DNA from: Bradyrhizobium sp. CB1650
GTDB lineage: Bacteria; Pseudomonadota; Alphaproteobacteria; Rhizobiales; Xanthobacteraceae
DNA: 64,000 nt
Assembly (NCBI RefSeq): GCF_029761915.1
Contig: NZ_CP121695.1
Coordinates: forward strand, 434,001-498,000
Direction: 5' to 3'
Shown piece by piece: positions 52,427 through 55,152 of this stretch. Under the pieces are notes generated by a model. It saw only the letters and a program-made list of their open reading frames with translations, made no database searches and had not been told where the DNA came from. The translations under genes and the position numbers were made by a program. The first letter of the stretch is position 1. Every line of letters starts with the position of its first letter.

Positions 52427-52762
52427 CGTTTTCTTCCTTCGTGTTCAATCCCGGCCTCGGGACACATAGGCGCCCGGGTCGGCTTTTTGTCAGTCGCTAT
52501 GGGTTTACGATTTTTGCGCGGCTGGGTTATCCCATTGAAAAACCACACAAAAGCAAGCGGCGCGAGAATTCCCGCGCCGGATGGCCGGACTTATAGCCGC
52601 TTGAGGCCGCGAGTCAAGGAAAACCGGGCCGAAAGCGGCCCGAATCTGAAGGATTTGGCCGGCTTTGATAGCTCCGGACGTGCGTGCGGATAATCGGCCG
52701 CGGCTGCAACCAACGGGTTCCGCCGCCGTTGTCACCTCGCATTCCAGCGGGCAAGGGCTCCC
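52427..52762. other. Promoter/leader region between rplU and the ROK gene
   Basis: No gene is seen in these 336 bp. They hold divergent promoters. Read on the minus strand toward rplU there are hairpins at about 52625-52642 (CGGGCC / GGCCCG) and 52558-52579 (CGGCGCGGG / CTCGCGCCG, loop AATT). The latter is followed by CTTGCTTTTGTGTGGTTTTT, so it resembles an attenuator. Confidence 0.5.
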
Positions 52763-53893
52763 ATGGCAACAGACGAGTTGGTCAAGACGACGGGCATCGC
52801 CAACCACGGCGCGGCGCGGCTGCCGTCGGTGGATGTCGACAGCTTCAACATCGAGATGAAGGACGAGGACGGCTTTCTCGGCGACCGCGCCAGCAAGGGC
52901 GCATTCCGCGAGATTCTCGACCGCTGGCGCAAGCCGCTGCGCAAGACCGGGGAGGACCCGTTCGGCAAAGAGCCGTCGGAGAACATCAGCAAGAAGACGC
53001 TGGATGAGATCCTGGTCGGAGACGACACCGAGGCGTCGGCCGTGGTGCACAGCGCGATCGAGGAATTCGCCCAGGAGCTCGCCCATGTCACGCGCCGCTT
53101 CCTCAAGTCGAAGGCCTGGGCCAAGACCGAGCGGATCGTGGTCGGAGGCGGCTTTCGCGATTCCAGGCTCGGCGAGCTCGCAATCGCGCGCGCCGAGATC
53201 ATCCTGATCTCCGAGGGCTTCAAGATCGACATGCGGCCGATCCGGCATCATCCGGACGAGGCCGGGCTGCTCGGCGCGCTGCATCTGGCGCCGTCATGGA
53301 TTTTCGAGGGTTACGACGGCATTCTCGCCGTCGATATCGGCGGCACCAACATCCGCTGCGGTGTGGTGGAAACCTCCTGGAAGAAGGCGAAGGACCTGTC
53401 GAAAGCCTCGGTCTGGAAGTCCGAGCTGTGGCGTCATGCCGACGATGAGCCCACCCGCGAAGGCGCGGTGAAAGGGCTGACGAAGATGCTGAAGGGATTG
53501 ATCGAAGAGGCCGACGGCGACGGGCTGAAGCTTGCACCGTTCATCGGCATCGCCTGTCCCGGTGTGATCAACGAGGACGGTTCAATCGAGAAGGGCGCGC
53601 AGAACCTGCCGGGCAACTGGCAGAGCAGCAAATTCAACCTGCCGGCGAGCCTGATCGAGGGCATCCCGCAGATCGGCGAGCACGACACTGCGATCCTGAT
53701 GCACAATGACGGCGTGGTTCAAGGCCTTTCGGAAGTGCCGTTCATGCAGGATGTCGAGCGCTGGGGCGTGCTCACCATCGGCACCGGACTTGGCAACGCA
53801 CGCTTCACCAACCGCCGCAAGAACGGCGGCAACGGCAAGGACCGGGACTCTACGGAGAGCGGCAAGAAAAAGGGCAAGAACGATAAGGAGTAA
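52763..53893 (+). CDS. ROK-family protein with circularly permuted domain order
   Basis: A 376-residue protein whose parts match ROK sugar kinases but in swapped order. Residues about 90-176 hold the normally C-terminal half: a helix AIEEFAQELAHVTRRFL, the adenosine motif ERIVVGGG (123-130) and EAGLLGALHLA (166-176). Residues 187-349 hold the normally N-terminal half: phosphate-1 AVDIGGTNIRCG (189-200), GIACPG (262-267), the catalytic Asp in HND (314-316) and phosphate-2 TIGTGLGN (338-345). A Lys/Gly-rich tail ends the protein. The CxCGxxGC zinc motif is absent. Sugar kinase activity is plausible, but the substrate is unknown. It is a single gene followed by a strong hairpin. Confidence 0.85.
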   Translation: MATDELVKTTGIANHGAARLPSVDVDSFNIEMKDEDGFLGDRASKGAFREILDRWRKPLRKTGEDPFGKEPSENISKKTLDEILVGDDTEASAVVHSAIEEFAQELAHVTRRFLKSKAWAKTERIVVGGGFRDSRLGELAIARAEIILISEGFKIDMRPIRHHPDEAGLLGALHLAPSWIFEGYDGILAVDIGGTNIRCGVVETSWKKAKDLSKASVWKSELWRHADDEPTREGAVKGLTKMLKGLIEEADGDGLKLAPFIGIACPGVINEDGSIEKGAQNLPGNWQSSKFNLPASLIEGIPQIGEHDTAILMHNDGVVQGLSEVPFMQDVERWGVLTIGTGLGNARFTNRRKNGGNGKDRDSTESGKKKGKNDKE

Positions 53894-55062: not shown

Positions 55063-55152
55063 GGAGAGGTGGCAGAGTGGTTGAATGCACCGCACTCGAA
55101 ATGCGGCATAGGTGCAAGCCTATCGGGGGTTCGAATCCCTCCCTCTCCGCCA
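55063..55152 (+). tRNA. tRNA-Ser(CGA)
   Basis: A full cloverleaf is visible: acceptor GGAGAGG / CCTCTCC, anticodon arm CCGCA-CTCGAAA-TGCGG with anticodon CGA (reads UCG), a long variable arm, T-arm GGGGGTTCGAATCCCTC and encoded CCA at 55150-55152. The long variable arm confirms a class II tRNA. It sits at the left border of an accessory-looking block. I found no second copy of its 3' end in the window. Confidence 0.97.

Follow-up and report, generated by a model that had tools for sequence, protein, structure and literature searches.

ROK kinases (PF00480), among them NagK, NanK, Mak and the ROK glucokinases/hexokinases, carry a phosphate-1 motif, a catalytic Asp, a phosphate-2 motif and a GGG motif, with phosphate-1 at the N-terminus and GGG near the C-terminus, and use ATP to phosphorylate a hexose or an N-acetylhexosamine. 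One passage of PMC2742894 terms the zinc motif GHx9-11CxCGx2G(C/H)xE characteristic of all ROK members. For NagK, sections of PMC10031466 describe D105 as the base, D6 as the metal residue, T10 and T132 as phosphate residues and N104, E154 and D187 as sugar contacts, and give E154 and H157 as the sugar-binding residues of ExGH. We have analysed a stretch of 64,000 nucleotides from Bradyrhizobium sp. CB1650 (NZ_CP121695.1, positions 434,001 to 498,000 of the forward strand; hereafter the window), in which one gene encodes a protein that shares the phosphate-1, catalytic Asp, phosphate-2 and GGG elements with ROK kinases and has both halves matched by the ROK profile and the predicted ROK fold. 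However, the two halves have changed places, so that the ROK linear order does not hold, the new ends lie before GExGH, CxCG is absent and the ExGH Glu is unconserved.

The gene and its parts are listed below in window coordinates. Row counts refer to an alignment of 360 search hits and 40 genome loci, in which 398 of the 400 rows are distinct but far from independent and the window protein appears twice.

52763..53893, + strand: permuted ROK-type kinase gene, ATG to TAA, 376 amino acids; Pfam ROK over cut-off.
52763..53308, + strand: residues 1-182, counterpart of the ordinary ROK C-terminal half (~residue 144 to end), from profile and model matches.
52805..52807, + strand: His15, candidate counterpart of the GExGH sugar-binding His; H in 394/400 rows.
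52883..52885, + strand: Asp41 in GFLGDRAS, putatively near the place of the ROK GCxE Glu; D in 400/400 rows.
53144..53152, + strand: GGG adenosine motif, residues 128-130; 400/400 rows.
53291..53323, + strand: short link between the former C-terminal helix and the former first strand, residues 177-187, from the model.
53309..53818, + strand: residues 183-352, counterpart of the ordinary ROK N-terminal half (1 to ~144).
53333..53347, + strand: phosphate-1 DIGGT, residues 191-195; D191, G193 and G194 in 400/400 rows.
53702..53710, + strand: HND, residues 314-316, with Asp316 as putative catalytic base; N315 in 400/400 and D316 in 399/400 rows.
53780..53794, + strand: phosphate-2 GTGLG, residues 340-344; G340, T341, G342 and G344 in 400/400 rows.
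53819..53890, + strand: Lys-rich tail of variable length, residues 353-376; probably disordered (low model confidence, length variation).

The initial annotation had described a swapped order of ROK motifs, and the positions that it gave for GGG (128-130), EAGLLGALHLA (166-176), DIGGT (191-195), HND (314-316) and GTGLG (340-344) were exact; the Lys-rich tail that it mentioned starts at about residue 353. The swap itself was borne out by sequence profiles. The protein scored 34.9 bits against Pfam ROK (curated cut-off 22.9), with the best stretch, residues 188-356, lying on only profile positions 2-147 of 294. Searched alone, residues 183-376 matched positions 2-147 (E 7.7e-6, 26.1 bits) and residues 1-182 matched positions 191-292 of 294, under the cut-off (E 0.073, 13 bits). 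The NCBIfam NanK profile agreed weakly, with residues 98-176 on positions 213-286 of 288 (17 bits, cut-off 450).

For the comparison by hhalign, the family side was an alignment of 55 proteins, comprising 53 of 360 proteins (<76% mutual identity, 340-400 amino acids) and two Bradyrhizobium proteins. The ordinary ROK side was a profile of 24 proteins with E. coli NagK as first row; it was assembled from 22 of 30 loci matching DxGGT plus CxCGxxGCxE together with three E. coli proteins (25 in all), from which the overlong L141 was removed, and is biased to zinc-bearing ROKs since its rows were picked by that pattern. Two hits in swapped order were obtained, residues 188-353 on 3-144 (E 1.2e-8) and residues 12-178 on NagK 152-302 (E 4.6e-5). 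When the ordinary ROK profile was doubled, a single continuous hit was generated (12-353 on 152-447, E 5.7e-13), with a score of 103.7 vs. 67.3 for the profile in single copy. The ordinary ROKs NanK, Mak and L150 each stayed inside one copy and never ran across, and a reversed-alignment control gave no match to the ROK profile (best E 0.25). The four single family members tested all crossed the copy boundary, with alignments starting only at residues 63-97; in this test the row P0001 was used with its alignment gaps left in. In NagK numbering, the permutation break lies in the interval from 144 to 152, directly ahead of GEFGH. The observed motif swap is correct and no artefact.

Alignment of a predicted structure to ROK structures, which the initial annotation had put forward as a check, was consistent with circular permutation. 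The AlphaFold2 model (predicted local distance difference test, pLDDT, of 90) matched several crystal structures of ROK proteins as two pieces that complement each other and meet near residue 143-144. On 3vov, residues 185-351 covered 1-144 and residues 22-173 covered 143-289; on 5nck, residues 21-166 covered 144-275. The link region of the model comprised a helix (178-182) and a strand (186-192), and the last three blocks, corresponding to the tail, had mean pLDDT values of 59, 43 and 54. No solved structure of the permuted family was found by sequence search. The calculations place the chain start just before the GExGH/zinc segment, followed by the old C-terminal half, a link of ~10 residues and the old N-terminal half, with the chain ending just after the phosphate-2 hairpin, the variable tail aside. 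Sequence profiles, predicted structure and conservation together support a circularly permuted ROK-type fold.

This is a large conserved family and not one odd protein. At E≤1e-3, searches with three family queries returned at least 8000, at least 7885 and at least 7896 proteins, of which the best 120 per query were inspected; weaker matches could include ordinary ROKs. Among the matches listed were proteins of Bradyrhizobium, Pseudoxanthomonas, Luteimonas, Lysobacter, Stenotrophomonas, Acidovorax, Polaromonas and Bordetella, named "ROK family protein" or "glucokinase" in their sources. A relative was encoded in 228 stretches of the genome contig collection, of which 80 were kept, in 40 of the 297 genomes of the order sample (15/122 genera; only fragments in G227 and G230) and in 22 of the 398 genomes of the phylum sample (11/212 genera). 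Plasmid records with a relative numbered 205, and 190 of these were from Rhizobium or Sinorhizobium.

All motif columns aligned in 400/400 rows (398 distinct sequences). Homologues with the same motif order, which the initial annotation had suggested looking for, were found, the order being common to the aligned rows: a text search recovered it in 376 of the 400 rows with strict patterns and in 399 with looser ones, and in the remaining row an extra HND letter match precedes the real HND. The ROK motif set (DxGGT, GTGxG, Asp after Asn, GGG) is present, with its columns conserved in 378-400 of 400 rows. Residues D191, G193, G194, N315, G340, T341, G342, G344, GGG 128-130, D165 and D41 were invariant, residue 195 was T in 378 rows, S in 21 and K in one, and the His15 column contained 394 His, five gaps and one Pro. 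Family-specific invariants include W223, H225, Q280, N281, W286, H314, Q320 and N345. The tail after A346 ranged from 5 to 104 amino acids (median 11).

Some members deserve separate mention. P0339, P0349 and P0354 (two Bordetella) have a Lys/Ala-rich extension of ~100 residues after the phosphate-2 hairpin, which presumably resembles H1-type proteins. Two full permuted copies occur in each of two same-genus genomes (G194, loci L087 and L119; G171, loci L089 and L120), and the window's genome has a second, broken copy (G000:C1:2011298-2011827; L121, L122) with pieces 3-51 and 232-365, 78-79% identical and with internal stops. An 86% identical copy (L039, 6001-7137) lies in a record labelled Frankia sp. 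RB7, among Bradyrhizobium loci; this label or the assembly may be wrong. A 60% identical relative is present at 477068-478090 of S. meliloti 1021 pSymB (L184), where the plasmid table annotates no gene.

The claim of the initial annotation that all core residues are kept did not stand. The CxCG of the ROK zinc motif was found in 0/400 rows, and at residue 12, the place of the ExGH Glu (NagK E154), Glu is not conserved, the 400 rows having mostly I (137) or L (121). Two defining ROK features are missing, and the family is therefore filed as a permuted relative and not as a textbook ROK member. On our reading of the motifs, D316, D191, T195, T341 and N315 would correspond to NagK D105, D6, T10, T132 and N104, respectively. 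His15 may stand for NagK H157, which we only infer because the hhalign register is two residues off, and Asp41 may stand for the GCxE acid of the zinc motif. As judged from these residues, the permuted family probably works like a ROK kinase, and the window protein is likely an active kinase.

Polyphosphate/ATP glucomannokinase (1woq) and polyphosphate--glucose phosphotransferase (NF045942) are of sequential order, unlike the permuted protein, and NF045942 matched only half of it (23.8 bits vs. an NCBIfam cut-off of 250). The classical glucokinase Glk (PF02685), which we take to be an ASKHA sugar kinase like the permuted protein, has the activity that is proposed for the latter; its profile remained below threshold on residues 183-376 (12.5 bits vs. 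a cut-off of 22.1, E 0.072). A separate classical Glk is encoded in the window's genome (C1:4813339-4814268). A permuted ROK kinase was not found in a literature search that had most subscription journals outside its coverage. A segment swap between 2-dehydro-3-deoxygluconokinase and an ADP-dependent glucokinase is reported in PMC2213659. In PMC7701253, an ATP-grasp protein with circular permutation and a ROK glucokinase are merely listed in one table. The two enzymes with the segment swap differ in fold from ROK.

We are fairly confident that in the window protein the ROK sugar-kinase fold has undergone a natural circular permutation, and that this zinc-less protein is probably ATP-dependent and probably acts on glucose. 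A role as a sugar/ATP sensor or regulator in place of kinase activity, for which the many repressors among ROK proteins offer a precedent, seems unlikely for the permuted fold. The loss of CxCG and of the ExGH Glu would suit such a role. In its favour, too, the other ROK loci detected in the window's genome, three in number, resemble regulators and match winged-helix profiles to varying degrees. However, D191, N315, D316, T341 and the glycine loops are kept in 399-400 of 400 rows, and a Pfam scan matched no DNA-binding domain in the permuted protein.

The protein could also be a mosaic, formed by joining the ends of two ASKHA pieces of unrelated origin and not by permuting one ROK ancestor. 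We hold this to be quite improbable, given that the family N-half aligned on ROK 152-302 (E 4.6e-5), that the doubled profile joined both halves and that, on the same ROK structures, the stretches covered by the two halves meet at about residue 143-144. A fusion of halves from two ROK copies is one possible route to a permutation. As for a sequencing or assembly artefact or a pseudogene, the broken copy in the genome (C1:2011298-2011827) would be in keeping with it, but the frame is open with conserved motifs, and the relatives in 228 stretches and in 40/297 and 22/398 genomes have already refuted this reading, whose probability we put at next to nothing. A sequencing error joining two genes, the case that the initial annotation had named as fatal to its proposal, is excluded: since the motif columns are common to 400/400 rows, neither chance nor sequencing error accounts for them.

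The gene neighbourhood was compared in the 48 genomes known to carry the permuted gene or a fragment. An OtsB (trehalose-phosphatase) match lay 149-730 bp from the permuted gene in 11 of them, distributed over four genera and three families, with seven of the 11 in one genus. In 10 of these 11, OtsA and a GH15 gene were within 4.3 kb, and Pfam confirmed OtsA (L165), OtsB (L167, L172) and GH15, the last with an N-terminal domain of trehalase-like type (L164). On a Rhizobium bangladeshense plasmid, the gene next to the permuted one, in divergent orientation, is annotated as otsB. In the order sample, OtsA was present in 38/40 carriers vs. 122/257 others (Fisher p 2e-9, uncorrected for kinship). 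Because otsB, otsA and a GH15 trehalase-like gene adjoin in several other genera, we infer glucose as the substrate, and our best guess is a kinase that acts on glucose close to the turnover of trehalose and glucans.

Several observations weigh against this assignment. No trehalose-gene neighbour was found in 37/48 carrier genomes, otsB-otsA lies ~106 kb from the permuted gene in the window's genome, and no match to an otsB query turned up in stretches of 17 kb from S. meliloti pSymB and from Phyllobacterium. A replacement of classical glucokinase was considered and rejected, with Glk in 26/40 carriers vs. 165/257 others (Fisher p 1.0).

The flanking genes recur in the Bradyrhizobium loci compared (window, L015, L060), which is uninformative because the loci come from close kin. 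Genes for DUF892 (L175, L180), SDR (L168), PfkB (L165, L175) and a HAD-type phosphatase (L176) were seen near some relatives, with no systematic count. In the window, a tRNA-Ser (anticodon cga) lies downstream of the permuted gene at 55063-55152 (+). A promoter/terminator scan gave one promoter-like site (52665-52694; 0.3 expected), which was not used as evidence.

As a ROK-type kinase, the permuted protein would still close its two lobes on one ATP/sugar cleft, with D191 holding the metal, T195 and T341 holding the phosphates and D316 acting as the base that activates the 6-OH. It would phosphorylate hexoses with ATP, its sugar site having been rebuilt around H15, D41, H225, N281, W286 and N315, and its substrate would probably be glucose recycled from trehalose or glucans. 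The permutation probably originated when a ROK gene was duplicated in tandem and the outer halves were then lost. More tentatively, and with some doubt on our part, the family could represent a widespread zinc-free glucokinase class, a permuted ROK with new ends beside the sugar pocket that serves the trehalose cycle; the ends, which in some members carry long Lys-rich tails, might serve as a lid or as a point of attachment for partners.

To our knowledge, enzymes that depend on the closure of two lobes are not commonly circularly permuted in nature. Here, the permutation would be fixed in a large family filed simply as "ROK family protein" or "glucokinase," in which sequential tools assign confidently just one half of every protein. 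The permuted family would offer a natural test of chain order and structural zinc in ROK kinases, and it is a candidate for a step, encoded close to trehalose genes in rhizobia and their relatives, at which glucose is phosphorylated.
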